Virus record (IMG/VR): IMGVR_UViG_3300010412_000656
Span: 1 to 25,834 of that record
Origin: a virus
Strand: one strand, 5' to 3'
Length of the DNA stretch: 25,834 bases
Below are positions 1,990 to 25,834 of the stretch, one piece after another. The notes beneath the pieces were generated by a model. The model searched no databases. It was given only the letters and a program-made list of their open reading frames with translations, and had not been told where the DNA came from. Made by a program: the position numbers and the translations under genes. Within the stretch, counting starts at the first letter, position 1; each line of letters starts with the position of its first letter.

Positions 1990-1997
1990 GGGGAACG

Positions 1998-7030: not shown

Positions 7031-7109
7031 GCAGACGCGCAACTGCTAGCATGGCATTGGAAACAGCAGTACCGGAACCACCAGACAACCAACTTCGACT
7101 CATAAGCTG

Positions 7110-7115: not shown

Positions 7116-7123
7116 AAATACCA

Positions 7124-8413: not shown

Positions 8414-8423
8414 CCTGGGGCCT

Positions 8424-8431
8424 AAGGAGGT
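8424..8431 (+). promoter_or_regulatory. Full-length Shine-Dalgarno AAGGAGGT
   Basis: AAGGAGGT at 8424-8431, six bases before ATG 8438, is the complete anti-16S complement. It implies that the first of the three paralogous small proteins is made in large amounts, close to the level of the capsid protein. Confidence 0.7.
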
Positions 8432-8437
8432 AAAACC

Positions 8438-8854: not shown

Positions 8855-8864
8855 GGGGTAAGGC

Positions 8865-9281: not shown

Positions 9282-9696
9282 GAGGAAGCCCAAGGTCTTC
9301 GGCTCCCTTGTCAGCCTGGGAGATGTAGAGTGGCGTCAGCTACTACTACTGAGTTTTGAAAAGGATGCCAGCCTGGGCCAGGATGTCGCTATCTACCGTA
9401 CAGTGGCTCCGATGCGGATCAAGCGCATGATCCTGACACGCGAGACAGCAGCAGGCGACTTCTTTTTCAGGGTGAAGGTGTGGCTGCCCTCCAGCGTGCA
9501 GTACTTCAGTAACTATATTGGTGCTGCCAGTGCGCCCGCTGCGAATGAGGCTCTTGATATGCCGCTCTCTGCTGCCAATAAGGCTCGCACGATCCCTGTT
9601 GGTAGCTGGATCGAGGCTGAGTGGGCTTTCGCCGCTGGCGGAGAGTGGAACCACTGCAGCCTCACACTGGAAGTAGAACGACTAGATACGGAGTAA
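9274..9696 (+). CDS. Putative capsid decoration protein, paralog C
   Basis: A 140-residue protein starting at GTG 9274 inside the end of paralog B. It keeps the ends of the family (KPKVFGSLVSLGDVEWRQL at the start; LEVERLDTE at the end) and the central RIKRMILTRETAAGDFFFRVKVW, but the middle is divergent: the DIT-LD-ALGA block of A and B is replaced by a longer polar stretch with Tyr, Asn and Trp. This pattern (conserved frame, variable middle) would fit a common base with a changed exposed face. Role inferred as for A and B. Confidence 0.8.
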   Translation: MSRRKPKVFGSLVSLGDVEWRQLLLLSFEKDASLGQDVAIYRTVAPMRIKRMILTRETAAGDFFFRVKVWLPSSVQYFSNYIGAASAPAANEALDMPLSAANKARTIPVGSWIEAEWAFAAGGEWNHCSLTLEVERLDTE

Positions 9697-9700
9697 GAAG

Positions 9701-9994
9701 ATGCCGATCAACACTCCCATCGATAAGGGTATGGGATCCAACACCATTGCCAACGCTCTTGGAGCCAGGATGATGCAGGGCGCCAACCCCCAGGGGCTAC
9801 CGGCCAATGATGGTTCCACGCCCGAGGGGCTATTGAAGATGCTGGCTAGCGGCCAGATCGGAGCTGAGCAGCTGATTCAGCTGCTGACCATGCTCAGCGG
9901 TCTTGGCCCTCAGGGCCTGCAGGCAGGGCCCCCAGCTCCGGGCCCGACAGAAGAGGAGATCGCTGGTCCCATTGGCCAGGCCATGATGGGCTAG
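9701..9994 (+). CDS. Small Gly/Gln/Pro-rich protein, unknown
   Basis: A 97-residue protein with GGAG at 9690-9693. Residues 10-30 and 46-75 are helical and mildly hydrophobic (NTIANALGARMM, LLKMLASGQIGAEQLIQLL), followed by a Gly/Pro-rich tail ending in AMMG. No strong membrane helix, no motif. It opens a block of unknown genes between the decoration-like proteins and the connectors. I do not recognise it. Confidence 0.75.
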   Translation: MPINTPIDKGMGSNTIANALGARMMQGANPQGLPANDGSTPEGLLKMLASGQIGAEQLIQLLTMLSGLGPQGLQAGPPAPGPTEEEIAGPIGQAMMG

Positions 9995-10004
9995 GGAGGT
10001 TCCC

Positions 10005-10604
10005 ATGCCTGATTGGCCACCAAAGGTCTACCCAGACCACTTCTATTGGAGCTGGGACACGGCGAAGCGCAGGATCAACGAGGAGATCGTTGGGCCTGCC
10101 CGTCGACTGCTGTCCCGAGGTTCTACCAGCCCGTCTATTCAGGAGGCACTGGCTAATCCCAGCCCGGCAGTCTCTACGGCAGTGGGCAATCAGCCCGGCT
10201 CCAACTACGAACTGTACCGCAGGCAGGCTCCAAGTGATATAGAGGCTATCGGAGGTATGGTCGGTCGGGAGGTTGTCCGACCTGCCAGTGATATCCTGGG
10301 CAAGCTGTGGCGCGGAGACCCCGTTCTCCCGAGGAGGGAGCCGGGAACCCAGCCCACTAGCGGGCAGATTATGTGGCATGCTCTCAAGACACGTCCGGTG
10401 CAGATGGGATCCAAATTGATGGTGGCTGGCACACCCTTTAGGAACACGGTCATTCCTATCCCTCTAGGCGGAGGGGTGGTTAGTCGCAAGACGCCTATCC
10501 AGCGTGTCATGACTGAAATGGACATTGCTGAAGAGAACATGACGGCTAGGGAGAAGGAAGCGGAGTTGCTCAGGCAGTTCCGCGCGCGGCAGGAGAGGAT
10601 GTAA
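10005..10604 (+). CDS. Unknown 199-residue protein
   Basis: Starts after GGGAGG (9994-9999). The N-terminus is rich in Pro, Trp and Tyr (PDWPPKVYPDHFYWSW), the middle is polar with scattered Pro and Arg, and the last 35 residues form a charged helix (EENMTAREKEAELL then RQFRARQERM). No catalytic motif, signal or membrane helix is seen. The stop overlaps the start of the putative peptidase (TAATG), so the two are probably coupled and may act together. Basic overall. Family not recognised; a minor virion or internal protein is possible. Confidence 0.78.
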   Translation: MPDWPPKVYPDHFYWSWDTAKRRINEEIVGPARRLLSRGSTSPSIQEALANPSPAVSTAVGNQPGSNYELYRRQAPSDIEAIGGMVGREVVRPASDILGKLWRGDPVLPRREPGTQPTSGQIMWHALKTRPVQMGSKLMVAGTPFRNTVIPIPLGGGVVSRKTPIQRVMTEMDIAEENMTAREKEAELLRQFRARQERM

Positions 10605-11161
10605 TGTCCAACGGCAAGCCACAGGATCCGATCAGGGCTGCCATGGAGGTCCCTATCGCAACCCTCCGTGAGATGAAGCATAAGCCCAAGCCCGAACTGG
10701 CGGATTCGCTGCGCGTCCCCTTCGTGCGCGATACACTGGAGATGCTGGTAGGGAAGCCCCAGGCCTACGTGATGCTACCTGATGACGTGGGCACAGTTGA
10801 TCCTGAGACCGGCAATGCCTATCAGATCTACGGTCGTTACTACTATCCTCAGAACCCGGAGGGGCTGCAGGACATTATTGCGATTTCTTCCAGCACGATC
10901 CCCCCTGAGGGCCGGTTCTCGTTCCGTAACACTATCGCCCACGAGTTCGGCCACAAGTTTCTGGGCGACAGTGAGGACATGGCAGAAGAGTTCAGTCACA
11001 TCATGAACGCGCTGAGTGCTACGCAGGACTTCACGCCGAAGCAGGCGCAGGGTATCTACAGGGCGCTACGGAAGCGTGGTAGCACCAGCCGCCATATTCT
11101 GGACGCAGTGCTGGCCAATGACTTCTACGCAGAACACCCGATGAGGAAGGGGAACAAGTAA
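10604..11161 (+). CDS. Putative zinc metallopeptidase (HEFGH)
   Basis: A 185-residue protein with IAHEFGHKFLGDSEDMAEEF at about 111-130: HExxH with His113, Glu114 and His117, then acidic residues (Glu124, Glu128, Glu129) that could give the third zinc ligand, in the manner of ImmA/IrrE-like and other gluzincin peptidases. The lead-in DIIAISSSTIP followed by FRNT resembles the strand and helix that precede such a site. It starts within the previous stop (TAATG) and ends the same way on the next gene. The N-terminus MSNGKPQDPIRAA resembles that of the gene at 11698. Possible roles are maturation of virion proteins, attack on a host protein after injection, or wall degradation. The motif is clear; activity and target are inferred. 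Confidence 0.8.
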   Translation: MSNGKPQDPIRAAMEVPIATLREMKHKPKPELADSLRVPFVRDTLEMLVGKPQAYVMLPDDVGTVDPETGNAYQIYGRYYYPQNPEGLQDIIAISSSTIPPEGRFSFRNTIAHEFGHKFLGDSEDMAEEFSHIMNALSATQDFTPKQAQGIYRALRKRGSTSRHILDAVLANDFYAEHPMRKGNK

Positions 11162-11595
11162 TGAACGAACTGCTGATTGTAGCTATAGCTGCGATGATCT
11201 TTGTTGGGCTGCTGTACTGGTACGTACGTACGCACCCTCTCTATACTGAAGACGATTGCCCCGACATCTCTTTCCCTGACGATGTCTGGGAGGACGTGCC
11301 GGAGGAGCCGGAAGAGGTAGAGCCTGAGAAGGAGCGCGGGAAGTCGGAGCCCAAGGGTAAGGCCCTGGGCCACGAGAAGATGCCTCCAGGCCAGGAGAAG
11401 AAGGAGGATGAGGATATGCCCATCAGGAAGGTAAAGGGTGGCTACAAGTGGGGTGGCCATGGCAAGGTCTATAAGTCCCGGAAGGGCGCGGAGAAGCAGG
11501 CGGCAGCTGCTCATGCCTCCGGCTATAAGAGCGATGGAAGCAAGAGTCACAGTCGGAAGGGCAAGGCCAAGGCACCCAAGAAGAAGGGCAAGTAG
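11161..11595 (+). CDS. Membrane-anchored protein with phage GGYKWGxxGK tail motif
   Basis: A 144-residue protein in three parts: a membrane helix at about 4-22 (LLIVAIAAMIFVGLLYWY), an acidic Pro/Glu linker (30-85), and a basic C-terminus (86-144) that begins with MPIRKVKGGYKWGGHGKVY and has KGAEKQAAAAHASGYK. The last part resembles small stand-alone phage proteins of about 60 residues with a GYKxGxxGKxY...AxxKQxxAxxASGYK pattern that I know as common in phage late regions, function unknown. The C-terminal part may also be made on its own (see the nested start at 11416). Coupled to the peptidase by TAATG. Confidence 0.78.
   Translation: MNELLIVAIAAMIFVGLLYWYVRTHPLYTEDDCPDISFPDDVWEDVPEEPEEVEPEKERGKSEPKGKALGHEKMPPGQEKKEDEDMPIRKVKGGYKWGGHGKVYKSRKGAEKQAAAAHASGYKSDGSKSHSRKGKAKAPKKKGK
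11401..11407 (+). promoter_or_regulatory. Internal Shine-Dalgarno AAGGAGG inside the 11161-11595 gene
   Basis: AAGGAGG at 11401-11407, eight bases before an in-frame ATG at 11416. It is stronger and better spaced than the site of the full-length gene, and points to a second translation start. Confidence 0.6.
11416..11595 (+). CDS. Possible nested small basic protein (internal start)
   Basis: Starting at the internal ATG 11416, 59 residues are read in the frame of the longer gene: MPIRKVKGGYKWGGHGK, then a Lys/Ala-rich helix with HASGYK, and a very basic end (RKGKAKAPKKKGK). This is exactly the part that resembles free-standing small phage proteins, and Met is its natural first residue. Both a long membrane-anchored form and a short soluble form may be made. 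The alternative is that the Shine-Dalgarno site is a by-product of the Lys-Glu-Asp codons. Confidence 0.5.
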   Translation: MPIRKVKGGYKWGGHGKVYKSRKGAEKQAAAAHASGYKSDGSKSHSRKGKAKAPKKKGK

Positions 11596-11597
11596 CG

Positions 11598-11693
11598 ATG
11601 AAGACTATCTTGATGGCGGTAGTCACGGTCCTCCTCCTGCTAGGCTGGGTAGCTTTCAGGGTGATCCAGTGGATCAAGAGGACTAAGGACTAG
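11598..11693 (+). CDS. 31-residue membrane microprotein
   Basis: An ORF filling the gap between 11595 and 11698: MKTILMAVVTVLLLLGWVAF, then RVIQWIKRTKD and a TAG stop. It is one hydrophobic helix (about 4-20) followed by a basic Trp/Arg/Lys tail, with a Met-Lys start, a topology typical of an N-out or signal-anchor helix with the tail inside. The ribosome site is weak (AGGGCAAG at 11586-11593). It lies two bases after the preceding stop and four before the next start. Holin-like or signal-peptide-like small proteins have this form, but I cannot claim a function. Confidence 0.6.
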   Translation: MKTILMAVVTVLLLLGWVAFRVIQWIKRTKD

Positions 11694-11697
11694 GGCG

Positions 11698-12849
11698 ATG
11701 CCCAACGGCAAGAAGAAGGAAGAGGATCCTATCAAGGAGGCGCTGAGGAATGCGGCTCCAGCTGATGTAGCGGTAGCTTACCTGCCGGTGCAGCGGGAGA
11801 GGACTATCCTTCAGCCGTTCACTCCAGAGCGCCGGGCTTCCATTCGTTCTCTGTCTGAGGCAGAGGCTGCTAAGCTCGGACTCGGCCAGAGGAATCTGGC
11901 GGAGGTGGTCTATGGGCTGAAGCCGGGGCAGGCACCGCCCCACCCAATTGTTGAGGCCCTTGCTAGCATAGACCCAATCGAGTTTGTAGATGCTCCTGTA
12001 GCAGCCGGGGTTGCCGCGTTCCGCCGAGGAAGGAAGGTCAAGAGCCTGGTCAAGGAGTATGCTGACGATGTTTCTAATCAGATCGCATCAGCTCGTCATG
12101 TTAGAAACGCCGGTTACTCTCCTACGCCCCAGCAGGTTGAGAATCCTATCCGTCTGGCCATCCTTCAGCAGGCGCGTAGGGAGGCTGAGCCACTGATTCG
12201 GCGTCAGTACAGGCGCGAGAACAGGGGTGAGTACCTAAGGCGTCTGTTCCTTAGGAAAGATAGGCCTGCTGACTACAGCGGTTGGAGGGATCCTGTAGTT
12301 CCGTGGGATTACATGGATCGGAAGCAGGAAGAGATAGCCAGGGCGCTTACAGAAGCAATGGATGCAGGTGACCCTCGCGTCTTGGGCAGGTACCTTGAAG
12401 GATCACAGCATATAGAGGACTTTCCTGCTTACTACGATAGATGGGCTAAGGATCTAGATCTTGATGCGTGGCGGTCTGCGGAGAGGCAGAAGATTATTAA
12501 GCAGGCCCTTGGCGCACAGACGCCACACGGCACGCCGAATAGAGCAGACCTCAGGTGGGCTACGGAGACAGCGGATGAGTTGCTGGTTCCTCTAGAGCGC
12601 CTGAGCATAATACGGGGGAAGAGCTACCGTAAGGTTGGGGGAGCTGCGTTTGCCAACATGGTACCCGACCTTATGACTGAGGACGAGGTGTATAAGATAA
12701 AAAGGGCCTTGACAGCTCGTGTGCAGGGTCAGGGCAGGAACGGGCCTGTAAATCCGGAGATGCCCTGGGATCAGTTCATTAAGAAGGTAGGCAGCAGTCA
12801 GCTAGATAAGCTGGCACGAGCAGCAGCTATGGTACGACTAGGAGGATAG
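11698..12849 (+). CDS. Large helical unknown protein with MxNGK...DPI start
   Basis: A 383-residue, Arg/Glu/Ala-rich, mostly helical protein without signal peptide or clear membrane helix (a short hydrophobic stretch APVAAGVAAF near 99-108). It begins MPNGKKKEEDPIKEAL, resembling the start of the HEFGH protein (MSNGKPQDPIRAA). Later parts have Trp/Tyr-rich segments (YSGWRDPVVPWDYMDRK; DFPAYYDRWAKDLDLDAW). AGG and other rarer codons are frequent and the local base content is slightly more AT-rich than in the capsid genes. I do not recognise the family; an internal or ejected virion protein is possible. Confidence 0.8.
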   Translation: MPNGKKKEEDPIKEALRNAAPADVAVAYLPVQRERTILQPFTPERRASIRSLSEAEAAKLGLGQRNLAEVVYGLKPGQAPPHPIVEALASIDPIEFVDAPVAAGVAAFRRGRKVKSLVKEYADDVSNQIASARHVRNAGYSPTPQQVENPIRLAILQQARREAEPLIRRQYRRENRGEYLRRLFLRKDRPADYSGWRDPVVPWDYMDRKQEEIARALTEAMDAGDPRVLGRYLEGSQHIEDFPAYYDRWAKDLDLDAWRSAERQKIIKQALGAQTPHGTPNRADLRWATETADELLVPLERLSIIRGKSYRKVGGAAFANMVPDLMTEDEVYKIKRALTARVQGQGRNGPVNPEMPWDQFIKKVGSSQLDKLARAAAMVRLGG

Positions 12850-12850
12850 A

Positions 12851-13429
12851 ATGCGGATCACATTCGGACACGACGGGTGCAGGAGGGAGATCCCACCCGC
12901 GTTCAAGCACAGGTTGGAAGAGTTTAACAGGCACAGGCGCCACCCCGTCTACCTGATCTGGAATCCCAGGGCCAAAACTATAGTCCCCCACGCGTGGGTC
13001 AAGGCTACAGGCCAGTTCCAGAGGGGCGAGTACGAGGGCCGCTGGGAGGTATGGGTAGGGCATGACGAATCCCGGCATCCTGGCCGCACTCGCATACGCG
13101 ATAAGGACAGGCGTCTGCTCCCTGGGGGTATAGAGGCCATCAAACTGATGGACTACGAGTGGTCTGATGGCTCCTATGCCGACCCCTTTAATGAGAACTT
13201 CCTGCGCGTCATGCACCTGGCCGACAGCTGGACATCCGAGTCCAGGCACTCCGGCCCGCAGGCACAGCTCAACGACCTCATGCTGTATGAGGCCATGCAA
13301 GATGATGCCTTGAAGAAGGATATGCTGGCCATTGCTTCAGGCACCATGGAGTATTATCGTCGGTATGACAACCCGGTAGTCGGACCAGGATCTAAGGGAG
13401 ATTGGCGCTGGCGGCTACCCCACAGGTAA
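12851..13429 (+). CDS. Unknown 192-residue protein
   Basis: ATG 12851 follows GGAGG at 12841-12845. The protein is basic and rich in His, Arg, Trp and Tyr. The first 75 residues look like an alpha/beta fold (RHPVYLIWNPRAKTIVPHAW; RWEVWVGHDESRHPGR), then a Trp/Asp-rich part and a C-terminal helix. No known catalytic motif is visible, although His and Asp residues are frequent. Family not recognised. It sits in the same gene block as the putative peptidase and zinc-finger-like protein. Confidence 0.78.
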   Translation: MRITFGHDGCRREIPPAFKHRLEEFNRHRRHPVYLIWNPRAKTIVPHAWVKATGQFQRGEYEGRWEVWVGHDESRHPGRTRIRDKDRRLLPGGIEAIKLMDYEWSDGSYADPFNENFLRVMHLADSWTSESRHSGPQAQLNDLMLYEAMQDDALKKDMLAIASGTMEYYRRYDNPVVGPGSKGDWRWRLPHR

Positions 13430-13441
13430 GGAGAGAGCATC

Positions 13442-13735
13442 ATGGTTAAGTACGCCATCAAGCGGGACAAGGACGGCAGGCGTATAGGGATAGGCGCGGC
13501 AGACAAACCGATGGGCAAGCCTGTAGAGGTGAAGAAGCCCAACGGTCCCACGCTTCCCGGCGCCCAGCAGGTAGTGTTTCAGTGTGTTGCGTGCGAGGTC
13601 GATGGTAAGAACACGGCACCCCGGTTCAAGCTGAAGGCTATCCTCGCCAACCACTTCAAGAAGGTCCACCAGAGTCTCTATCTGGATAGGGACACCTGGA
13701 AGAACTACGTACGGGAGATCGTACTAGAGGACTAA
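13442..13735 (+). CDS. Small protein with C2H2-like zinc-binding pattern
   Basis: A 97-residue, basic protein. AAGGAGAGAG before ATG 13442 is a good ribosome site. Residues 46-78 contain C48-x2-C51, 19 residues, H71-x4-H76 (FQCVACEVDG then ILANHFKKVH), a layout like a C2H2 finger but with a longer middle (12 is usual). The FKLKAILANHFKKVH helix is what such fingers have after the second Cys. It could bind DNA or another protein. It lies just before the connector genes. Metal binding is inferred from the residue pattern. Confidence 0.75.
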   Translation: MVKYAIKRDKDGRRIGIGAADKPMGKPVEVKKPNGPTLPGAQQVVFQCVACEVDGKNTAPRFKLKAILANHFKKVHQSLYLDRDTWKNYVREIVLED

Positions 13736-13738
13736 GTC

Positions 13739-14446
13739 ATGGCAATCACAGCTTCGGACGTTCTAGACACCGCTAAGCTCCTGGCTCATCCCTATGCCCA
13801 GGGGCCCTACCCGGTCGCCACTATGCAGCTGGTGAGTCAGCTCTCCAGCCTGGACCGGGAGATCGCAATGGACATAGCGAAGGTAGCCCCTGAGTTGCTG
13901 GCACAGAACGCCAGCGCCGACATCACGATAGTCAAGAGCAGCAATGCGGCTGGCTATTCCCTAGAGAGTGGGGCCATGCGCTACTTCGACTTCACTTACG
14001 TGGCGGATGACAGCGAGTACCATAGGAACATTAGAATGGTTCCGTTGGGCCAGTTTGATCAGGCCCCCGGTCACCCGGCCGCCACGGTGCAAGGCGACAA
14101 GTTCTATCCGTGCGATCCATTGAATAGGCGATGGAGCGGGCAGGACGACCGAACCTTCTTCAACGGGGACGGGGAGGTCGTGCGCTATCGCTTTGTCGCT
14201 GTTCCGGCGGCACTTACTGGCCCCACATCCAGTCTGACGAGCCCCGACTTCGCCCGTCCTTACTTCGAGCAGGCGCTGGTGGTGACGCTGTTGATGCTGA
14301 ACAGCGCTCCGGCACCGATGCTCCAGACGGCTATGCTGCGTGAGCAGATTCTGCGCAGGCAGCTGGGCCTGAACATCTACAACTACGCCCAGAAGAACTC
14401 CTCTTGGGGACAGTCTGGTGAGATGGATTACTGGAGGTATTACTAA
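13739..14446 (+). CDS. Putative head-tail connector/adaptor protein 1
   Basis: A 235-residue protein. N-terminal helices (VLDTAKLLAHP..., MQLVSQLSSLDREIAMDIAKVAPELLAQ) are followed by a beta part (about 58-165) and C-terminal helices (FEQALVVTLLMLNS; LQTAMLREQILRRQLG). This helix-beta-helix layout and the position between capsid and nozzle genes fit an adaptor or head completion protein that sits under the portal. It shares an N-terminal pattern with the next gene. The gene ends by overlapping it (TAATG). Family name not certain. Confidence 0.7.
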   Translation: MAITASDVLDTAKLLAHPYAQGPYPVATMQLVSQLSSLDREIAMDIAKVAPELLAQNASADITIVKSSNAAGYSLESGAMRYFDFTYVADDSEYHRNIRMVPLGQFDQAPGHPAATVQGDKFYPCDPLNRRWSGQDDRTFFNGDGEVVRYRFVAVPAALTGPTSSLTSPDFARPYFEQALVVTLLMLNSAPAPMLQTAMLREQILRRQLGLNIYNYAQKNSSWGQSGEMDYWRYY

Positions 14447-15144
14447 TGGCTACCACGCAGGATATCATTGACCGCGCTATGGCTCGTAGTGAGCAGAATG
14501 AGAGCGGTCTGATCTCCACTGCCGACATGGTGGACATCGTTAGTGATGCCCAGAAGACAGTGTACATGCTGGCGGCTCAGGAGGCTCCCAACTTCTTCGG
14601 CCAGGACGGCAGCACTTCCGTGCGCAGCACCTACACGGCCGACTGGGATATCAGTAACCTGAGGGCGGGCGTGATCACGCGTGTGGAGATCAAGACCATT
14701 ACGGGGGCTGTTACCGGCCTAGCCGCAGGTGACAAGATCAACCTGATTGACTTGCGGTTCCCCGAGCTGGAGGTTGCTCCTCGCGCGCATATCCGCAACC
14801 AGAAGATCAAGGGGTACGGTACGGACCTGGGAGCCGCAGACGCGAACATGGTCACACAGTTGACTATCTACTATAGCTACGTTCCGGGCAGCCTGACAGA
14901 TGAGAACTCCATCATTTCCCTGCCCGAGCGGTGGATCGAGATGCTCGTTCTGCCTCTGGCCAGGAAGCTTGCTGTAGCTGACGGCGGCCGACAGCCTGAG
15001 GTCCAGGCTTACGAGGCTGAAATGGCCACGGAGACAGCCAGGTTCATCGCAGCCATCAGCACTTACGATTACACGGCCGTACGCCCGGCTACAGCGCGCA
15101 GCCCGCTCCAGATACTGGGCATTCCGAAGCCGGAGGGTGAGTAA
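14446..15144 (+). CDS. Putative head-tail connector/adaptor protein 2
   Basis: A 232-residue protein. N-terminal helices (IIDRAMARSEQ; MVDIVSDAQKTVYMLAAQEAPNFF) align with those of the previous protein (M..LVS.......A.....AP.L..Q), then a beta part with the strand IKTI and ITRVE, a loop region, and C-terminal helices (RWIEMLVLPLARKLAV; YEAEMATETARFIAAI) like those of podoviral adaptors that bind portal and nozzle. The Shine-Dalgarno (GGAGG) lies in the end of the previous gene. It overlaps the nozzle gene at TAATG. Role inferred from layout and position. Confidence 0.72.
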   Translation: MATTQDIIDRAMARSEQNESGLISTADMVDIVSDAQKTVYMLAAQEAPNFFGQDGSTSVRSTYTADWDISNLRAGVITRVEIKTITGAVTGLAAGDKINLIDLRFPELEVAPRAHIRNQKIKGYGTDLGAADANMVTQLTIYYSYVPGSLTDENSIISLPERWIEMLVLPLARKLAVADGGRQPEVQAYEAEMATETARFIAAISTYDYTAVRPATARSPLQILGIPKPEGE

Positions 15145-17321
15145 TGGTAAACCCTGTCTGGCAGAGCTTCCCGGTGGCTATCGCGCCTGGAGGCCTATCG
15201 CAGTCGAGGGCTATCCCCGAGCCTGGGGATATGATCGACCTGCACAACTTCGTCAACTTTAGGGGCCGCTGGGGTCTGAGGCCCGGAGCTGAGGACGAGG
15301 GCATCACGCTCACAACTAACGGTTCCACGGCAGTGGACCAGGTTCTGGACATCATAGACTTCAACGGAGAGTTCTGGATCGCTACCTTCGAAACCAGCGC
15401 TGGGACTCAGCTCCAGCGGTACACCAAGGCGGGCGTGCTCAGGGAGCGCGTGACGGTCTGGTCCGATAGTGCGGCTCCTCTCATCCAGATGGAGGTGATG
15501 GCGGCCAGTGATGGTACAGAGGTGGATACCAGCGAGCAGAGGCTCTATGTCACGGACTACCTGCAGAGTCAGAACCATTGGAGCCGGTATGTGGTACCCG
15601 ATCAGACAGACCCGTACGCCAGCACGATCACAGACCTACTCCTGGATCTGGATCTGGACAACGCAAGTCAGGCCCAGGAGCGGTGCTTCTTCCGTACGTT
15701 CAAGCAGTATCAGTACCACATGTGGGGGACTGGCTTCCACTATAGGAAGGCTACGGCGGGGGACATCATCCTCAGGGGTGAGATGCTTAGGTTCTCCCAG
15801 CCCGGTCTCCTGCCTGGTGTGGACGAGGACGAAGGCGATTACAGCCTCACACAGGACTGGTGGAAGACTGATTGGCGAGGTGTAGGCGCCAGGTACGACG
15901 ACGTGATAGCTCTCAGCCAGAGCGCTGGAGGCATGGTCGTCGGCAAGAAGCGCGAGCTGTATGTCATATCTGGCTTCGACAGGGACAGCTGGGCTCTGGA
16001 GCAGCTCTCTCGCAAGGTGGGCATCATCGGTCCTAACGCGGCCGACTACACGGACGAGGGACTGTGCTTCTTCTGGTCCGAGAAGGGACCTTTGATGACG
16101 GATGCTCAGAGGGTCGTGGACCTGGGAGAGGACATCCGGGAGTACGTCAACCTGACCAGCACTGATGAAGCCTACAGTGTGCAATACAGTCCGGATGATG
16201 GCCTGGTGTACTTCATAACGAGCGTGGCTGGCTCTACCGGCCCGGATCGCTTCTTCACTTTCGATGTGCAGCGTCAGAAGTGGGCCAGGGGCGAGTGGTG
16301 GCTGGGTTCCAGCACGCGTGTATTGGTGAACGTAATCAGAAGTGTGGGTGTGGATACGCTGCCCGGTCCCGCTAGCGCGCCAAGCAGCTTGGCTGTGCAG
16401 TCCAAGACCTACAACAGCGTGTTCCTGGAGTGGACGAACGGTGACACGGCCATCGGCACGACCACAGAGATCTGGGGCAAGCTGAACAGCGCTACCAGCG
16501 GTAACTGTGGTACGGTGCCTACAGGCTGGGCTATGATCGATAGCGTGGTCGCGGGTGTGGACGAGTACAATGCTACGGGTCTCAACAGCCGTAACTATCA
16601 CTGCTTTGCCGTGCGCCACCTGCGTAACGGTCAGTACAGCAGCTGGTCCAACCAGCTCAGTGACACGCAGACGGATCTGGCTCCGCCTAACTCTCTGGCC
16701 TGCGAGGCCAAGAGTGATGGCATCACGCTCAACTGGGTCAATGTAGAGAGTACGGGCAACGTGCAGATCCAGAGGCGGGCTCTACCTAGTGGCAGCTTTG
16801 GTGACCTGGACAACCCCGCTAATGGTGGTGCGGGAGCCCAGCAGTACAATGATACGACCTGCACATGCAGCACCGAGTATGAGTATAGGGTCAGGGCTGA
16901 GGAGGCCAGCTGGGATGACAGCGACTGGTCCAATACGGACAGCAAGGAGTGCTGCCTAAGCCCGATCAGCATCAGTCTGTGCGAGCACGATCTGACTGCT
17001 CTCACAGCCTACTGCCCAGATCCGAATAACGTGCAGATCGACTTTACGATCAGCGGTGCGCAGCCAGGCGATACATACAAGGTGTGGCGCTCGCTAGAGG
17101 CAAGTTCTGGGAGTCCGAGCTACGATGACCAGCGTGACTATGGTTCCGCCTCGAACGGCAGCAACACTGTCTATGATACGTTCGGTGCTATCACAGGCAG
17201 CGACACCCGCTACCTCCAGTACAAGATCGAGGTCTATGATGGAGGGGTCACGCTGGTAGACAGCTGCGAGACTACGGAAGAGACCATAAGTATCGACAGT
17301 ACGGCCAACTGCCCGGAGTAA
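15144..17321 (+). CDS. Tail nozzle/tubular protein with C-terminal Cys-rich FN3-like domains
   Basis: A 725-residue protein. Residues 1-400 fit a podoviral tail nozzle or tail tubular B-type (beta-propeller-like) protein: an N-terminal NFVNFRGRWGLRPG segment as in many nozzle proteins, repeated beta blades, and the late blade region DDVIALSQSAGGMVVGKKRELYVI followed by the Trp-rich FDVQRQKWARGEWW. Residues about 405-510 and 510-605 look like FN3 domains (P-x-SLAVQ, LEWTNG, SSWSNQLSDTQT; then LAC, LNWVN, SDWSN), and a third, similar domain fills the end. Cys is rare in the first 400 residues (2) but frequent after that (11), which suggests disulfide bonds. Role: terminal tail tube, perhaps with binding ability. 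Confidence 0.8.
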   Translation: MVNPVWQSFPVAIAPGGLSQSRAIPEPGDMIDLHNFVNFRGRWGLRPGAEDEGITLTTNGSTAVDQVLDIIDFNGEFWIATFETSAGTQLQRYTKAGVLRERVTVWSDSAAPLIQMEVMAASDGTEVDTSEQRLYVTDYLQSQNHWSRYVVPDQTDPYASTITDLLLDLDLDNASQAQERCFFRTFKQYQYHMWGTGFHYRKATAGDIILRGEMLRFSQPGLLPGVDEDEGDYSLTQDWWKTDWRGVGARYDDVIALSQSAGGMVVGKKRELYVISGFDRDSWALEQLSRKVGIIGPNAADYTDEGLCFFWSEKGPLMTDAQRVVDLGEDIREYVNLTSTDEAYSVQYSPDDGLVYFITSVAGSTGPDRFFTFDVQRQKWARGEWWLGSSTRVLVNVIRSVGVDTLPGPASAPSSLAVQSKTYNSVFLEWTNGDTAIGTTTEIWGKLNSATSGNCGTVPTGWAMIDSVVAGVDEYNATGLNSRNYHCFAVRHLRNGQYSSWSNQLSDTQTDLAPPNSLACEAKSDGITLNWVNVESTGNVQIQRRALPSGSFGDLDNPANGGAGAQQYNDTTCTCSTEYEYRVRAEEASWDDSDWSNTDSKECCLSPISISLCEHDLTALTAYCPDPNNVQIDFTISGAQPGDTYKVWRSLEASSGSPSYDDQRDYGSASNGSNTVYDTFGAITGSDTRYLQYKIEVYDGGVTLVDSCETTEETISIDSTANCPE

Positions 17322-17324
17322 GCT

Positions 17325-17792
17325 ATGCCGAACCCACTGTACATCTGCCCATCGAACACGAACAAGATCTTCCGTGTGGGAAGGATCGGGTTCGATACGG
17401 CTACCCAGGACCCCAACTCCACCGACTTCACCGGAGAGCTGACGACGGAGAGGCAGAGCCCCGCTGGTGAGACGGGAGAGGTCCTGTACAGGGGAGCCGT
17501 ACTGCGTGTTCTGCTAAGTGGAAGCTATACCTTCGTGGTACGCTTCTACGTGGACGGGGTGCAGACCGTGGACGGCGAGGGGGACGACCAGAGCATTTCC
17601 TTCACAGGCTCGGGGAAGCCCCTGGGCGAGTACCTCTTCGAGTGCGCTTTTCGGGCTAAGGGAACCTACGTCCAGCTGGAGATAGAGTTGACGGCCAGCG
17701 ACGTGGATGGGGTATTCCTCCCCGAGAGTGCTCAGGTCTTCTACATGCCGCTGAGTACCGCTAAGAGGACACCCACAGTTGAGGTGGCCTAA
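17325..17792 (+). CDS. Small beta-rich tail-associated protein
   Basis: A 155-residue protein starting after GGAG (17315-17318). Strands with alternating hydrophobics (VLRVLLSGSYTFVVRFYVDGVQ; YVQLEIELTASDVDG) suggest a beta-sandwich; there are many Gly and no membrane helix. It is placed between the nozzle and the fibre, a common place for a small attachment or fibre-adaptor protein. Coupled to the fibre by TAATG, with the site GAGGTGG in its own end. Not recognised as a named family. Confidence 0.78.
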   Translation: MPNPLYICPSNTNKIFRVGRIGFDTATQDPNSTDFTGELTTERQSPAGETGEVLYRGAVLRVLLSGSYTFVVRFYVDGVQTVDGEGDDQSISFTGSGKPLGEYLFECAFRAKGTYVQLEIELTASDVDGVFLPESAQVFYMPLSTAKRTPTVEVA

Positions 17793-19903
17793 TGGGTACC
17801 TCCAGGTTTCCTGTATGGCCTAGGGGCATAGCCCACCCGCAGCTCCAGCGCTTCTTCGAGACCCTGCGCAAGAGGGTCTTCGAGCTGGAAGAGACTGTGC
17901 TGGCGGGCGGGGTCCCCTGGACTAGCCTCACGAACAACTATCTTCCTAAGTATGATAGTGGTGGGGATGAGCTGGTTGATTCCGTAGCCTATGAGGATAC
18001 TGGTTGGATCACTACCCAGCAGATGCGGGTTGGCGGGGCAGTCCCTCGACTGGAGATATACGACTCCGACTACAGTTTTTCTGATGCCAGGCGCTGGCGC
18101 TTCTACCAGAGCGGAGCGCAGCTGCGCTGGGCGGCTGTCACCGAGGACCAGGCTACAGTCAGGGACTTCATGTCCATTGTCAGGCTGAGCGGCGATTACA
18201 GCTACCCCACACAGATCAAGTGGTACCCGACCAACTTCGCGTCCAGGACTGTACAGTTTACTATCGGTTCCACCGGCCACCAGACTAGTGCCTTGCTGGA
18301 GGTTAACACTAACGGCAATAATGCTGGATTCGCCGTCTATAACAGCCATATCTACCTGCACAATGCTGGGTCCCCAACTGCTGCTAACATAATCCAGTGG
18401 GGTACGAGCACGGTCTTCGGCAAGATCGTTGGCAACTACCTGTCTGGTAACGGCCGTATGGAGTACTTCTCCGGAGACCACACTCACTTTGTGCTGGATA
18501 GCCGCAGCCTAGTCGCAGATGCTGAGTTCGTCATCCGCATGCACAATACATCCGGGTCTTACTATCTCTCTTTCACGGAGGGTGCAGGCCTGGGCTGGGA
18601 CAAGGACGGGGCCAGCTGGACCAACACAATCGGTAGTTCGGATGATATTCTGTCCCTACCCCTGGCTAACAACACGAGCCTGACGTGGCGCAACGCAGGA
18701 GATACTGCGGACATCAACGTCCTCAAGGTCGACGCCAGCGACGATACAGTCCTGATGGCTGACACCAGCGACCAGATCCTGTTCTATAGCGGCGCTACCC
18801 TGGCTATGACGATCAGTGGTACGGGCACGATCCAGATAGAGAACACCCTGACAATGAACACGGCCGATATCTACATGTCTACCGGCTATGCTGTCAGGGA
18901 CAGTTCGGATGCCGATCATGCCTACCTGCCAAGGCCAGCGGCCGATCAGGCACTCCTGCGCAGCGCGGGCAACGTCATCATCCAGCTGGATTCGGATGCC
19001 ACCTCTAGTGGCAACTACTTCCAGATCAGGCACGACGCCAGCACCTACAGCGGTGGAAGCCTGCTGTGGCAGATAGACGAGACCGGGGCCATCTCGCAGT
19101 ACGGTGCCCTGACGATCACCGGGAACCAGGCCAGCGAGTTCGTCGCTCTGAAGCTGGATAACCTGGACAATACGGCAGCAGGGTTCACAAAGCTGCTCAT
19201 TGAGACTACGCATGCAGACGCCGATCCTGTCATTACGTTCGCGGCGGCCGGTACGACGGCTAACACATGGACTATAGGTACGGACGGCAGTACTTCCACA
19301 GACAACTTTGTCATCGCTGTGGGCCAGAATCTCAGCAGCATACCGGCACTCTGGATCAAGCGCACTGCTGTTGCAGGAGACGTATTCATTGCTGGTGACA
19401 TGAATATTGCCTCCGACAATTATGTCAACTTCACGCCTGCGGACAGCAATACCAGCATTCGCAGGACTACTACAGGCTACTTTACGGATGCTACGCTGGA
19501 GTTCAACTCCTACGGTACGGCGAACGTGGGAGGCTTTGCCTTCCATCGTAGGGGGCCTGGTTCCGAGGCGCTGCTCACTATCGACTGCGATAGCAATAAT
19601 CTGGGAGAGACCATCGTCCACTACACACTGGTGGTGGGCACAGATCCGGGAGGCACGAAGACTGTCAGGGTGGCAGCGGACATGCTGGTCGGCACAGACC
19701 TGGAGATAGATGGTAGTCTAGATCACGACGGCTCTACAGTAGGCTTCTATGGTACTACCCCGGTGGCTCAGAGTTCCGCTTACACGGTCTCCAATGGCTC
19801 TACAGATAGGGCCCTAGACGTGACGGGCGATTCTCTGGCCCAGGTGGCGGCTGTTCTGGGCACACTGATCGGTGATCTGCAGGCACTGGGCCTAATTGGC
19901 TAG
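17792..19903 (+). CDS. Tail fibre protein
   Basis: A 703-residue receptor-binding fibre candidate. The N-terminus has a short helix (HPQLQRFFETLRKRVFELEE) and then NYLPKYDSGGDELVDSVAY, a pattern common in phage fibres (LPKY/LVDS). The middle is beta-rich with many Ser, Thr, Asn and Gly, typical of fibres, and AYLPRP in the later part repeats the fibre theme. The end has GFYGTTPVAQSSAY, a frequent C-terminal fibre motif, and a final helix ending DLQALGLIG. No peptidase or lyase motif is seen, so it is more likely a binding than a degrading spike. The target on the host is unknown. Confidence 0.85.
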   Translation: MGTSRFPVWPRGIAHPQLQRFFETLRKRVFELEETVLAGGVPWTSLTNNYLPKYDSGGDELVDSVAYEDTGWITTQQMRVGGAVPRLEIYDSDYSFSDARRWRFYQSGAQLRWAAVTEDQATVRDFMSIVRLSGDYSYPTQIKWYPTNFASRTVQFTIGSTGHQTSALLEVNTNGNNAGFAVYNSHIYLHNAGSPTAANIIQWGTSTVFGKIVGNYLSGNGRMEYFSGDHTHFVLDSRSLVADAEFVIRMHNTSGSYYLSFTEGAGLGWDKDGASWTNTIGSSDDILSLPLANNTSLTWRNAGDTADINVLKVDASDDTVLMADTSDQILFYSGATLAMTISGTGTIQIENTLTMNTADIYMSTGYAVRDSSDADHAYLPRPAADQALLRSAGNVIIQLDSDATSSGNYFQIRHDASTYSGGSLLWQIDETGAISQYGALTITGNQASEFVALKLDNLDNTAAGFTKLLIETTHADADPVITFAAAGTTANTWTIGTDGSTSTDNFVIAVGQNLSSIPALWIKRTAVAGDVFIAGDMNIASDNYVNFTPADSNTSIRRTTTGYFTDATLEFNSYGTANVGGFAFHRRGPGSEALLTIDCDSNNLGETIVHYTLVVGTDPGGTKTVRVAADMLVGTDLEIDGSLDHDGSTVGFYGTTPVAQSSAYTVSNGSTDRALDVTGDSLAQVAAVLGTLIGDLQALGLIG

Positions 19904-20789: not shown

Positions 20790-21479
20790 ATGGTAGGTCT
20801 GGCAGAGTTCTTCTTGAGGGGCCGACAGGGGACTGGCACGACCAATACAGGCGTTCCCTTCAGCTCTGATACCCTAAGGCAAAGGCGGCAGCAGCTTTAC
20901 AGGCGCTGGGGTGAGGGCTACAGCCCCATGGTCCCAGGCAGCTTCCCTGATGATAGGATGTCCGGAGCCTCCCAGGCCCCTGGAGCCCGCTACCTGCGAA
21001 CTCTGGGAGAGCAGTTCGTTCTCCCTCAGGTCCAGGCACAGGGACTTCAGAGTGGAGCCCTCAATCAGATGCTGTTCAGTTCCCTCCAGGGTGATCCTGG
21101 AGAGGCTGGCTTGAAGTACGCCCAGGAAGCCACTAAGGCATACGCAGAGGATATAGGCCGCCCTGGGGGCCCCATTGCCCAGGCTATTCAGCAGAGCTTG
21201 CGCGGTAGCGTGCAGTCCGGTTTTGGTCCTGGTGGAACTGGCAAGACCACGAGCGATGCCTTCGGCATTGCCCGAGAGGGTGCCAGGAGCGTGTCCAACT
21301 TCTTCACACAGCAGGCGTTGACCGCTCGGGGACAGGGTATTCAGCGTGAAGCTACATTGGGCGGCCTGGCTGGTGCCCAGGCTGATCGTTACCTGAGCCT
21401 GCTGGGTGGCCTGATGGGTATCAATATGAGCGCCGAGCAGCTGGGACTCCAGCGCTGGGCCATCAACAAGCAGACCTAA
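20790..21479 (+). CDS. Putative internal/ejection protein, Gly/Gln-rich
   Basis: A 229-residue protein, first of the final block. AGGAGA at 20778-20783 is a good ribosome site. It is rich in Gly, Gln, Arg and Ala with amphipathic helices (YLRTLGEQFVLPQVQAQGLQ; AREGARSVSNFFTQQALTARG; LGGLAGAQADRYLSLLGGLM). No membrane helix, no enzyme motif. This composition and place after the tail genes are typical of podoviral internal proteins that are ejected with DNA, but the family is not recognised. Confidence 0.72.
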   Translation: MVGLAEFFLRGRQGTGTTNTGVPFSSDTLRQRRQQLYRRWGEGYSPMVPGSFPDDRMSGASQAPGARYLRTLGEQFVLPQVQAQGLQSGALNQMLFSSLQGDPGEAGLKYAQEATKAYAEDIGRPGGPIAQAIQQSLRGSVQSGFGPGGTGKTTSDAFGIAREGARSVSNFFTQQALTARGQGIQREATLGGLAGAQADRYLSLLGGLMGINMSAEQLGLQRWAINKQT

Positions 21480-21480: not shown

Positions 21481-21741
21481 ATGGCTGGCCCTGTCTATTC
21501 TGCGCTGGCGGCTGGCAATCCTCCCCCTGCGATGATCGCTGGGGCCCGTGGCTCTTCAGGGTCGCGGCTGCTCGCTACACGCAATCCGGATGCGGGCGAG
21601 AGTCGTCAGCGCAGTCTCATCTTTCAGGCTATGGGTGAGCCATCGAAGCAGCCCCGCATGCTGTTCACCAGCCAGCGGGTACGTGCCATACAGGAAATAC
21701 GCAAGCGTGCGCAGCAAATACAGGAGCTAGCAAATGGCTAA
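21481..21741 (+). CDS. Small basic protein in the internal-protein block
   Basis: An 86-residue protein, Ala/Gly/Arg/Gln-rich: a weakly hydrophobic start (GPVYSALAAGNPPPAM), a disordered Ser/Arg part, and a basic helix (SQRVRAIQEIRKRAQQIQEL). It starts one base after the previous stop and overlaps the next gene by eight bases. No motif recognised. It could be a chaperone or minor internal component. Confidence 0.72.
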   Translation: MAGPVYSALAAGNPPPAMIAGARGSSGSRLLATRNPDAGESRQRSLIFQAMGEPSKQPRMLFTSQRVRAIQEIRKRAQQIQELANG

Positions 21742-22156
21742 CTTCGTCCCTTACGTGGAGTTTCAGGCCCCGCGCATCCAGAAGCAGGGTGGTGGGCCGT
21801 TCTCTGATATTGGCCAGGCCCTAGGTACAGTGGGCGGGGCTGTTGTAGGCTCCGTAGTTCCAGGCGCTGGCACGGTCATCGGAGCGCAGGTTGGAGGCAT
21901 GCTTGGCCGCACGGCTGGCGGAATGATAGGGGGCGAGGGCAGCTCTCCTGGAGCCAGCATGGCAGGTCCCATCTCCCAGGCTATGTTTACTAGGGAAGAG
22001 GATGAAGAGGAAGAGGAGGAGGGCGTGCCGCCCGCTCCTCAGCCCGGAGGTGCCGCGAGCATAGGTGGTGAAGAGGACATTGATGCTGCTATAGCGGCTG
22101 CTCTTGGCCTGGGTCCAGGCATGTATTTTGGTAGCGGTCAGGGCTATCAGTTCTAG
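21734..22156 (+). CDS. Glycine-zipper protein with FVPYVEF N-terminal module
   Basis: A 140-residue protein. Residues 4-13 FVPYVEFQAP and the following Gly-rich part (about 30-67) contain repeated GxxxG steps (GTVGGAVVGSVVPGAG, then VGGMLGRTAGG), the mark of glycine-zipper membrane-inserting helices. An acidic run of Glu/Asp (about 88-96) and a Pro/Gly-rich end follow. The first 45 residues match the start of the next gene. A role in making a pore or channel in the host membrane during DNA ejection fits, by analogy with other small Gly-rich phage proteins; this is inference. Confidence 0.75.
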   Translation: MANFVPYVEFQAPRIQKQGGGPFSDIGQALGTVGGAVVGSVVPGAGTVIGAQVGGMLGRTAGGMIGGEGSSPGASMAGPISQAMFTREEDEEEEEEGVPPAPQPGGAASIGGEEDIDAAIAAALGLGPGMYFGSGQGYQF

Positions 22157-22165
22157 GAGTAGACT

Positions 22166-24037
22166 ATGCCACAGTTCATTCCGTTCGTCCAGTTCTCCGC
22201 TCCTGCGGTCTCCAGGCGTCCGGGCTTCGGAGAGAAGCTACTGGATACCCTCACAGGGGCTGTTGTCGGGGGCGCTGCCCAGATAGCGGCCACCAAGGTC
22301 GGGACTGACATTCGCTCCAAGGCCGAGAAGGAAAACCTGGCTTACAGGATAGCGGCGGAGCAGGAGGCAGAGCTGGCGACTAACTGGGCACCGCTGACCC
22401 AGGAGATTAAGGACTCGGCTGCGGCCCAGAATCTGAGGCTCAGCCCAAGGACTTTCCAGGGCCAGGAATATGTCAGTCGCGCGGATCTTGCCCAACTGGA
22501 GCAGCGGGAGTTTACACGCGAGTACGCCCAGGAAGAGGTGTCTGTTCCGGGCGCTGGAGTTAGCGGGCCCCGTGAGGAAATTGAGCTAGGCGTCAGGGCT
22601 GGCACACTCGGCCGTATGATACCTGCTTCCGAGACTGAGAGGCAGGCAGCTCTGGATCAGGCGAAGGCCGAGAACGAGGCCAGGAAGAGGCTAGGGCTTC
22701 CTACTGCCCACGCTGAGCTGATCAACGCTATCGAGACCAATCAGCCCCTGAGCATAGACGATCTCAATGCGGTGCAGCAGGCCGTGGTCTTCTCTTATGG
22801 AGCTGCTGCTTCGACAGCCCAGGAAATCCGTACTCGCTACCAGTTCAACTACAATGCTGAGCGTGAGCTGGCGGCTGACGTCATGACGATGATGATGGGT
22901 GCCGACCTCGTAAATCAGGAGGGCAATCTAAGGATTCCCATAGGTCCAGACATGGCCCGTATGTGGCTGATGGACACAGAAGAGAAGCAGCAGATGTACG
23001 CCCGAGGCTGGCGGGTGATGGAGAAGAAGGCACCTATAGACCTTGGAGAGTACATCAACAATGTGCTGACCAAGCCCGAAGGCGAGCCCCTCAAGCTATG
23101 GTACACCAAGATCTTGAAGGAGGCCGGGATCGCGGTCAACCCCGACGGCAGCGCTCTGTCTGATCCTGAGGTGAAGGCGGCCCTCGACTCCAACTCTGCC
23201 TACGCTACAATCTGGGTCGGTGGTATCACACTGACTGGTATGTACAGCCCATTGATGGGAGGGTGGAAGTCCCTGGCTGCTGCCTATGAGGCAGGTAAAC
23301 TGCCTGACATAGTCTATGACATGCCCGCCATGATGGTCATCGCCGGTCAGGTCTACCGCAATTTCTACAACCAGGAGAGCCCGACCGATGCTGAGATCAG
23401 GGCGCTCATTGGCAACAGGGACAACATGGCCGACATGGGTGGTGACCCAGCCCTTGGCCCAGCTTCCCTGAGGCGTGACCCGACGACAGGTGACATTGTA
23501 GACCTGAGTGGAGAGGTAGTGGCCAAGGCCAACGAGCCTAGTGCCTTCAGGCTTTTCGCAGAGGCAGGCAACGTAGGCAACCCGAACAGGCAGGCTGCGG
23601 CTGTGGGCAAGCTGGGTACACAGTTCGGCTTCATTCCAACAGGCACGCCGGGAGTCACTCCTGAGCAGGCGGCCAAGGTCAGGGAGAGGCAGGCCTTCAC
23701 ACGCTACGAGGGTATGGAGGACCCGCACTACAGCTCTACTGTGAACTCGTTCCTGGACGCTATTACGAACAACCCAGGTGACACCATCAATATGTTTGGT
23801 GAGCTGACAACCTATACACAGAACCCGACGCTGCTCAGGGACTACCTGAAGGGCAGCCTCGGAAACCGTCCTGACATCGGGCCAGAAGACAGGCAGCGTA
23901 TCGCCCGATCTCTGGATGCGCTAGACTTGAACAATCCAGAGGATGTGGCTGTACTGAGGAGTGCGGCCAACGATTTGCTGGATGCCTACACACAGGCACT
24001 GAGCATTTATAACGCGCGGGTAGAGTCTCCTAAGTAG
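22166..24037 (+). CDS. Large internal virion protein with FIPFVQF N-terminal module
   Basis: A 623-residue protein starting after AGGAG (22155-22159, overlapping the previous stop). Residues 4-13 FIPFVQFSAP and 27-36 (DTLTGAVVGG) match the previous protein. The rest is largely helical, rich in Ala, Glu, Gln and Arg (AEKENLAYRIAAEQEAELA; AEINELTNP-type regions absent), with a moderately hydrophobic centre around the TIWVGGITLTGMYSPLMGG stretch (about 350-368). No lytic transglycosylase or protease motif is visible. Size and place fit an ejected internal protein of a podovirus. Not recognised as a named family. Confidence 0.78.
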   Translation: MPQFIPFVQFSAPAVSRRPGFGEKLLDTLTGAVVGGAAQIAATKVGTDIRSKAEKENLAYRIAAEQEAELATNWAPLTQEIKDSAAAQNLRLSPRTFQGQEYVSRADLAQLEQREFTREYAQEEVSVPGAGVSGPREEIELGVRAGTLGRMIPASETERQAALDQAKAENEARKRLGLPTAHAELINAIETNQPLSIDDLNAVQQAVVFSYGAAASTAQEIRTRYQFNYNAERELAADVMTMMMGADLVNQEGNLRIPIGPDMARMWLMDTEEKQQMYARGWRVMEKKAPIDLGEYINNVLTKPEGEPLKLWYTKILKEAGIAVNPDGSALSDPEVKAALDSNSAYATIWVGGITLTGMYSPLMGGWKSLAAAYEAGKLPDIVYDMPAMMVIAGQVYRNFYNQESPTDAEIRALIGNRDNMADMGGDPALGPASLRRDPTTGDIVDLSGEVVAKANEPSAFRLFAEAGNVGNPNRQAAAVGKLGTQFGFIPTGTPGVTPEQAAKVRERQAFTRYEGMEDPHYSSTVNSFLDAITNNPGDTINMFGELTTYTQNPTLLRDYLKGSLGNRPDIGPEDRQRIARSLDALDLNNPEDVAVLRSAANDLLDAYTQALSIYNARVESPK

Positions 24038-24065: not shown

Positions 24066-25834
24066 ATGTCCAACGGTGGCCCACCAAAGCCAAGTCGTGA
24101 TGATCTGCTAGCCCTGACCTCCGGGGCCTTTCGTGCAGAGCAGCCAGGTAAGCGTTTCCAGAGGTATGGTGGCGGAGGGGTTCGTGACCTCCCGCTGATC
24201 GGTGAGTCCCTCCTTCTGTCCGAGATAGGTCCCAGGCAGGCTAATCTTCCTGCGGGCTACCAGATGGCTCAACTGTTCGGTGACATGATCAGTGGAGTCA
24301 TGCGGATGGTAGGCCTGGACGATGAGGCCACGGCCTATGAGCAGTCCGTCGAGAGTCCTACGGGCCGTCCTGCGGGCGGTCGTGTGATCGACGTGACGGA
24401 CCCAGGCGTAGAGCTTCCCGAAGACTTCAAGCTGACGGCTACTGAGCAGCGCATGCGTCTGATGCGCAGGTTCGGACGCGGTCTGCGTATTCTCGGTCCT
24501 ATCGCTCAGGCGGCTGCTTCGGGCCAGGACCCGGTACAGTTTGCTAATGTCATGGCTCGTTCCGGCTTCGGTACTGGAGAGCTGCCTATGACCACAGCCG
24601 GTCTCCAGAAGTTCGGGCAGATGGCCCCAGCCAGGACAGAGGCAGAGCAGGTCATGGACTTCGCGGCCGAGATGGTTCCAGGCATTGCCGCCGGTATCCC
24701 CGAGTACATGGTCACTCGTCAGCTGGCACTTCAGGGCATCAGGCAGTTCGCCACTACCCCCAAGGGAGCCGAGCTGCTTCTCAGGGGCGCGGAATGGTGG
24801 GCGCGCAGGGTAGGCGCCAAGGCCGGTCCCCAGGTCATGGCTCAGGTTGCCGCTCGCAGGGCTGCTGCTGAGCAGATCATTCCCGAGTTCCTGGCTGACA
24901 TGACGGCCGAGGTGTTCACAGGTATCATTGCCGGAGCCCACGAGGGTGCGCGTCTGGCTGAGCCCAAGGGCACCATTGAGATGAAGGACGTGGCCTACGG
25001 CGCTCTGTTCGGCGTGGCTGCGGGTATTACCCTGGGATCGGGCATCAACATCGGTGTGAATACGACCCGAGCTATCCGCGCGGCTAACAGTCTGACCTAT
25101 CTCTTGAGGCAGGGCGTTTTCCCAGATGCCTACATGGCTCCAAAGGGTATAGACATTCGCCTCAGAAACCTGAGGGTAGGTGACAAGACGGCTGTCGGCT
25201 ACAGGGCGGATGGTAGCATCGTCTGGCAGGGACCGAAGGGAAAGATTACCAAGGCTCCCACCCCTGACGAGGTAAGGACATGGGGCAGTGAGCTGGTCGA
25301 GCAGTTCCGCGCCAGCAAGGCCGAGGCCGAGTCGCTGGTCGGTAAGGGTAAACAGGCCAAGACAGCCACAACTCCTGAGCAGAAGGCGGCAGGCCAGCCC
25401 TCTACCTACAATGAGCGCGCGATGCAGGCCCATGAGGTAAACTACCGGGCCGACGCCGAGGTAGAGGCAAGGCTATGGGCCGGGCATCCAGAGGTCGTTG
25501 AGCAGCAGGCGGATGTTCTTGAGGCCTGGGCGATTGGCAACACGGCCACCGAGTCGCAGTCCCTCAAGGCGCTGGGTCATGCCCGCGCCCTCCGTAAGGC
25601 TTTGGGGCAGGATGTCCATCCTATCTCTGCCCTGGCTCCGGAAGAGGAGGAGGTTGCTCAGAAGTTCATCCGCACTATGAGTCCGGAAGACGCGCTGGAG
25701 CAGGCCAACCTTTACGAGGCCAAGGGCAAGACCAACGTCGCCGCTCGTATCAGGGAGCTGGCTGACAAGGGCATCCCTGACTCAGATGTGGGCAAGGACC
25801 TGGGTGATATCCTAAGGGATGCCTCTCACGCTAC
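24066..25834 (+). CDS. Very large internal virion protein, partial (runs off the end)
   Basis: From ATG 24066 (AGGAG at 24054-24058) the frame stays open for 589 codons to the end of the window, so the gene is longer than seen. The start MSNGGPPKPSRDDL resembles the starts at 10604 and 11698. It is rich in Gly, Ala, Arg and Glu: a Gly-rich basic start, amphipathic helices (LMRRFGRGLRILGPIAQAA, about 132-150), a hydrophobic Gly-rich stretch (about 309-332, VAYGALFGVAAGITLGSG), then a beta segment and long charged helices. The hydrophobic stretch could insert in a membrane. No enzyme motif is visible in the part seen. Likely an ejected internal or polyvalent protein; the class is inferred. Confidence 0.82.
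   Translation, partial: MSNGGPPKPSRDDLLALTSGAFRAEQPGKRFQRYGGGGVRDLPLIGESLLLSEIGPRQANLPAGYQMAQLFGDMISGVMRMVGLDDEATAYEQSVESPTGRPAGGRVIDVTDPGVELPEDFKLTATEQRMRLMRRFGRGLRILGPIAQAAASGQDPVQFANVMARSGFGTGELPMTTAGLQKFGQMAPARTEAEQVMDFAAEMVPGIAAGIPEYMVTRQLALQGIRQFATTPKGAELLLRGAEWWARRVGAKAGPQVMAQVAARRAAAEQIIPEFLADMTAEVFTGIIAGAHEGARLAEPKGTIEMKDVAYGALFGVAAGITLGSGINIGVNTTRAIRAANSLTYLLRQGVFPDAYMAPKGIDIRLRNLRVGDKTAVGYRADGSIVWQGPKGKITKAPTPDEVRTWGSELVEQFRASKAEAESLVGKGKQAKTATTPEQKAAGQPSTYNERAMQAHEVNYRADAEVEARLWAGHPEVVEQQADVLEAWAIGNTATESQSLKALGHARALRKALGQDVHPISALAPEEEEVAQKFIRTMSPEDALEQANLYEAKGKTNVAARIRELADKGIPDSDVGKDLGDILRDASHA

Follow-up and report, generated by a model that had tools for sequence, protein, structure and literature searches.

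Two adjacent genes on the plus strand of the window (here the whole 25,834-base virus record that was analyzed) encode proteins that share a module of roughly 45 residues, a real common element that is confined to their N-termini. ORF A (140 aa; 21734..22156, + strand) contains the module, a glycine-zipper-like hydrophobic stretch (residues 27-66), a Glu-rich low-complexity stretch, and a short C-terminal part. ORF B (623 aa; 22166..24037, + strand) has the same N-terminal module, is predicted to be mostly helical, and has no database match. Both proteins start MxxF[VI]P[YF]VxFxAP, which is followed by a variable linker and then by a glycine-rich hydrophobic segment with GAVVG. The reading that we favor, at a probability of about 0.4, is that the module is a docking or sorting segment that was duplicated in part and is coupled to a membrane-compatible helix, on two probable ejection proteins.

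The N-termini of A and B are credible, because an AGGAG Shine-Dalgarno-like sequence lies just 5' of the ATG in both genes. When the proteins are aligned from the first residue (MANFVPYVEFQAPRIQKQGGGPFSDIGQALGTVGGAVVGSVVPGAGTVIG in A; MPQFIPFVQFSAPAVSRRPG--FGE--KLLDTLTGAVVGGAAQIAATKVG in B), there are 19 identities, including the Met, and two short gaps. Residues 4-13 form the aromatic-proline segment, FVPYVEFQAP in A (21743..21772, +) and FIPFVQFSAP in B (22175..22204, +). The linker that follows differs by four residues between A and B and leads into the hydrophobic segment, which is Gly-rich, contains GAVVG, and spans residues 26-50 in A (21809..21883, +), and which spans residues 25-46 (LLDTLTGAVVGGAAQIAATKVG) in B (22238..22303, +). 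Residues 1-15 of the two proteins align with a BLOSUM62 score of 48 (best of 20,000 shuffles, 44) and residues 1-50 with a score of 81 (best of 20,000 shuffles, 59). With B as the query, HMMER recovered A over residues 1-51 at 37% identity (E 0.001), and A and B were the top-scoring N-terminal pair among the 32 CDSs of the window that were compared. The original prediction, that the starts of A and B share an F-[VI]-P-[YF]-V-x-F-x-A-P motif plus GAVVG and that the proteins otherwise differ, is thus upheld on both counts: none of the 20,000 shuffles matched the score of the shared stretch, and past residue 60 the similarity between A and B is not significant (score 43, reached by 7% of shuffles). 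The module is absent from the three other ORFs of the same block, namely a 229-aa ORF (20790..21479, +), an 86-aa ORF whose last 8 nt overlap the start of A (21481..21741, +), and a giant ORF that runs off the window after 589 aa (24066..25834, +). As the giant ORF and the 229-aa ORF lack it, the module does not act as a packing signal for the block in general.

The codons used in the module bear on its age. A and B use the same codon at 5 of their 18 shared non-Met residues, against 6.5 expected from codon usage, which indicates that synonymous positions are saturated and that the likeness is old or convergent and is held at the protein level. The agreement between the two proteins would then reflect constraint, or convergence. 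Within residues 4-12, five identities fall at every second position (F4, P6, V8, F10, and A12), an arrangement that has a chance of 1/126 and was noticed post hoc. Alternation of this kind would fit an extended strand of which one face is conserved.

To judge from its terminase (430-1989), P22-type portal (2209-4278), major head protein (7124-8413; phrog_14242), and SU10-type adaptor (14446-15144; slightly under the curated Pfam cut-off), the source of the window is an uncultured phage of the short-tailed type. The closest named relatives are remote, at about 20-26% identity, and comprise Arthrobacter phage Jasmine, LUZ24-like Pseudomonas phages, and two uncultured podovirus genomes from Manatee Spring (MW202795 and MW202554). 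Scans with portal and terminase profiles likewise found relatives at only about 20-36% identity, the upper values being over short segments. The genes of the window run in the order portal, capsid, adaptor, nozzle, fiber, A and B, and giant ORF, the nozzle-like ORF (15144-17321) being assigned by its place in the gene order common to the relatives. A candidate scaffold gene lies at 5908-6924. Jasmine, MW202795, MW202554, and a further relative, G008, have the same succession of nozzle, small ORFs, a mid-size ORF, and a giant ORF. In the relatives' blocks the nozzle and small ORFs are followed by an ORF of 195-354 aa, one of 394-431 aa (Jasmine, MW202795, and G008), and a giant ORF of 1106-1803 aa; the ORF sizes are 684, 86, 238, 431, and 1803 aa in Jasmine and 728, 86, 210, 401, and 1178 aa in G008. 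The giant ORF of the window stands in the same place as that of the relatives, B takes the slot of the mid-size ORF, and A is an additional small one ahead of B. By its position, the 229-aa ORF is possibly an ejection or structural protein of gp7/gp14 size.

A and B thus lie after the nozzle and fiber genes and before the giant ORF in a phage with a P22-type portal, and this position suggests that they are probably ejection proteins, injected with the DNA. Neither protein matches a known ejection family of PHROG or Pfam, by sequence or by profile, and a phmmer comparison of the tail-block proteins with all ORFs of the relatives returned a weak adaptor match only. Such dissimilarity is expected, because members of ejection-protein families share from single-digit to about 20% identity (PMC8954989). 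As A and B show no sequence likeness to the block proteins of the relatives, it is from gene order that we infer their virion location; the original claim that both are internal agrees with this order, and packing inside the capsid would follow from position.

A similar arrangement is seen in better-known phages. In T7, as probably here, a small membrane-type protein (gp14) is followed by a mid-size helical protein (gp15) and a giant protein (gp16), and a domain can move from one mosaic ejection protein to another (PMC8954989). The resemblance of A to gp14 is limited, since gp14-like proteins have about 200 aa and two to five predicted TM helices, whereas A has 140 aa, one hairpin-like stretch, and no sequence match to them. 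P22 likewise combines a portal of this family with ejection genes (gp7, gp20, and gp16) that come after the tail genes; in contrast to A and B, the P22 proteins are not described as sharing an N-terminal module in the available part of the source (PMC8402733).

The hydrophobic part of the module is more pronounced in A than in B. GxxxG occurs in A at residues 27, 31, 35, 46, 50, 54, 58, 62, and 63, and only once in the module of B; the Kyte-Doolittle maxima over 19 residues are 1.56 for A and 1.21 for B. A also has a weak match to the Pfam Gly-zipper_Omp type (14.7 bits; cut-off 25), and residues 21-71 match tape-measure and lysin families of PHROG, probably because of composition. The AF2 models of A and B are both of low confidence (pLDDT 53 and 41, respectively). 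The model of A has residues 1-21 extended and helices at 22-41 and 46-65, and that of B is mostly helix; in both, residues 1-20 are without helix, and a helix begins at residue 21-22.

We propose that A and B are ejection proteins, internal to the virion and encoded side by side, of a phage with a P22-type portal, and that their modules would be homologous copies left by partial (5') gene duplication or recombination, the downstream parts having then been replaced or diverged. Residues 4-13 would form a short extended peptide that, while the particle assembles, docks on a partner common to both proteins, possibly the scaffolding protein, the portal, or the adaptor, and docking would bring A and B to the portal vertex ahead of packaging. 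Residues 26-47 would form a glycine-rich hydrophobic helix that lines a pore or enters a membrane after ejection, and that in A may continue into a glycine-zipper hairpin. A docking or sorting role is suggested by the N-terminal location of the module, by its constrained start as compared with the unrelated remainder of the proteins, and by precedent in P22 and T4. The common attachment site that sharing limited to the N-terminus generally marks in fibers and spikes also speaks for it. A more specific version, in which the module serves as a single docking code, appears doubtful to us: an aromatic-proline strand of about 10 residues would bind a shared acceptor at the portal vertex, with the membrane helix following it, and one module would load both proteins into the head and later co-assemble them in the host envelope.

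The precedents support in part the original suggestion of a sorting or docking tag. According to PMC8402733, ten N-terminal residues of the T4 internal protein IPIII suffice to direct a fusion protein to the inside of the head; the T4 capsid targeting sequence (CTS) of internal proteins IPI-IPIII is also covered in PMC3012670. Like the A/B module, the CTS is a short N-terminal sequence carried by several proteins of one phage that otherwise differ, in T4 internal ones (PMC3012670, PMC8402733), and A and B are a case of the same short N-terminal sequence on at least two otherwise unrelated proteins of one phage. The likeness is one of kind, and we claim none of sequence: unlike the CTS, the A/B module runs on into a Gly-rich hydrophobic helix. 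The CTS is also processed proteolytically in the prohead; no prohead protease was recognized among the window ORFs that were scanned. A 185-aa ORF in the structural region (10604-11161) has a metalloprotease-like HEFGH motif and sub-threshold matches to Peptidase_M78 and phrog_87. In P22, the N-terminal parts of gp7 (residues 21-154) and gp20 (residues 1-314) carry scaffold-dependent procapsid binding and incorporation, gp7 largely withstands loss of its residues 1-20, and the ejection proteins bind at separate sites of their own (PMC8402733). By analogy, the separate sites and the tolerated gp7 deletion would count against the docking reading, as does the lack of the module in the giant ORF and the 229-aa ORF. 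Shared N-terminal targeting or anchoring modules are therefore already known, and the A/B sequence itself is new and comes from a single phage. The original statement that no description existed accordingly holds for the sequence of the module and fails for the kind of thing it is, because N-terminal signals of T4 and P22 have been described. For P22-type phages, the routing of ejection proteins to their sites in the procapsid has been worked out only in part: the scaffold is needed, and the exact signals are undefined. A portable N-terminal tag common to two proteins would offer a simple handle on ejection-protein placement and on the loading of foreign proteins into heads.

The module is known from a single uncultured phage. 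Anchored at the N-terminus, the motif had one match in IMG/VR viral contigs, antisense to another ORF; unanchored, it had seven, of which none stood where a plausible gene begins. Among 84,980 prokaryotic genomes the anchored motif had 34 matches, of which almost all fell in very short frames. The only long frame among them (L099), a mycobacterial sequence of low complexity that is rich in Pro and Met and lies within a longer frame, was rejected. A tblastn search of 50,697 phage records matched neither the N-terminus of A nor B, and searches there with the portal, the giant ORF, and the 229-aa ORF gave no match either. None of 92 remote relatives with a related portal or terminase carries the module when searched with its profile, and no homologue of A or B was found in any collection searched. 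The notion that the motif might recur at the N-termini of other phages' proteins thus met with no credible match in IMG/VR, the 84,980 genomes, or the 50,697 phage records. Because these collections contain only remote relatives, this absence says little about closer kin, and it limits the generality of the tag and does not disprove it.

The main rival is a membrane-entry role for the whole module, which would insert in the host envelope after ejection so that A and B co-oligomerize in one pore, other parts of the proteins driving packing. We regard this as somewhat unlikely. It gains from the hydrophobic segment within the shared stretch of both proteins, from the GxxxG series and predicted helical hairpin of A, and from the universal presence of membrane helices in gp14- and gp16-type ejection proteins (PMC8954989). 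The segment in B, however, is only marginally hydrophobic and contains Asp27 and Gln39, and the aromatic-proline part, which a plain membrane helix does not need, is significant by itself.

That the module is only residual homology, A and B being old tandem duplicates with slower-diverging N-termini and no separate tag task, seems to us distinctly unlikely. Tandem duplication is seen in this genome (three paralogues at 8438-9696) and in its relatives. Yet the rest of A and B shows no detectable similarity, while 9 of the 10 residues at 4-13 are identical or differ by V/I, Y/F, or E/Q, a disparity that points to constraint on the N-terminus.

There is a slim chance that A and B are external structural or tail proteins that the module attaches to a common site, as in spikes and fibers. 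A common N-terminus of tail fibers or spikes is generally taken as the mark of a common virion attachment site, and A and B lie downstream of a fiber gene. We surveyed 5,789 neighboring same-strand ORF pairs of the window and remote relatives (3,520 + 2,269) and found significant N-terminal sharing in a small number of clusters, most of them tandem paralogues or fiber/spike-type genes (Jasmine gp17/gp18; L060, G070, and G090), the latter accounting for most cases in which similarity was limited to the N-terminus. In Jasmine, a tail spike (gp17) and an adjacent esterase (gp18; L008:11823-15254) share the N-terminal sequence DDI[ST]LIL.KAKLNGFLPDVK and have largely different remainders. The Jasmine and A/B pairs are alike in that neighboring genes share an N-terminus and for the most part differ beyond it, but spikes and fibers are outside receptor-binding or enzyme proteins, which A and B would not be on the reading we favor, and the Jasmine sequence is longer and different. 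The block order fits ejection genes, and B is predicted, with low confidence, to be mostly helical, unlike a beta-rich fiber. No further A/B-like pattern was recognized in an ejection-type block among the 5,789 pairs, which makes the pattern unusual there; the idea that neighboring ejection proteins often share N-termini, tested on the remote relatives, was not supported.

Chance, composition, or convergence of two unrelated N-termini, for which it speaks that there are two sequences only and that the second half is rich in Gly, Ala, and Val, is already disfavored and hardly credible, given that residues 1-15, although free of Gly, score above all 20,000 shuffles, and that the best other N-terminal window in the subset of relatives scored reached 24.5 against 47.5-48.5 for the 10-residue motif of A and B.

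Several other features of these genomes were recorded. Directly 3' of the portal gene, the window encodes a calcineurin-like metallophosphoesterase (4271-5341) whose N-terminal part weakly matches sigma-70 region 4 (helix-turn-helix). The three tandem paralogous ORFs (8438-8854, 8865-9281, and 9274-9696; 138-140 aa) lie directly after the major head protein, have 26-39% identity and ERLDT/ERLDS ends in common, and possibly encode decoration or head-fiber proteins. In MW202554, the terminase large subunit is annotated as two ORFs (L007:32005-34542), and the larger of these, which shows poor alignment to other terminases, may contain an intein-like insertion. Bases 1-18,472 of the window have 99.97% identity to the end of a 62 kb IMG/VR contig, IMGVR_UViG_3300010413_000031, which ends short of A and B and in which B finds no match. 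This sister contig carries 25 tRNA genes in about 2 kb (L115:13362-15301) that cover nearly all amino acids, an array that belongs to the same phage population as the window.
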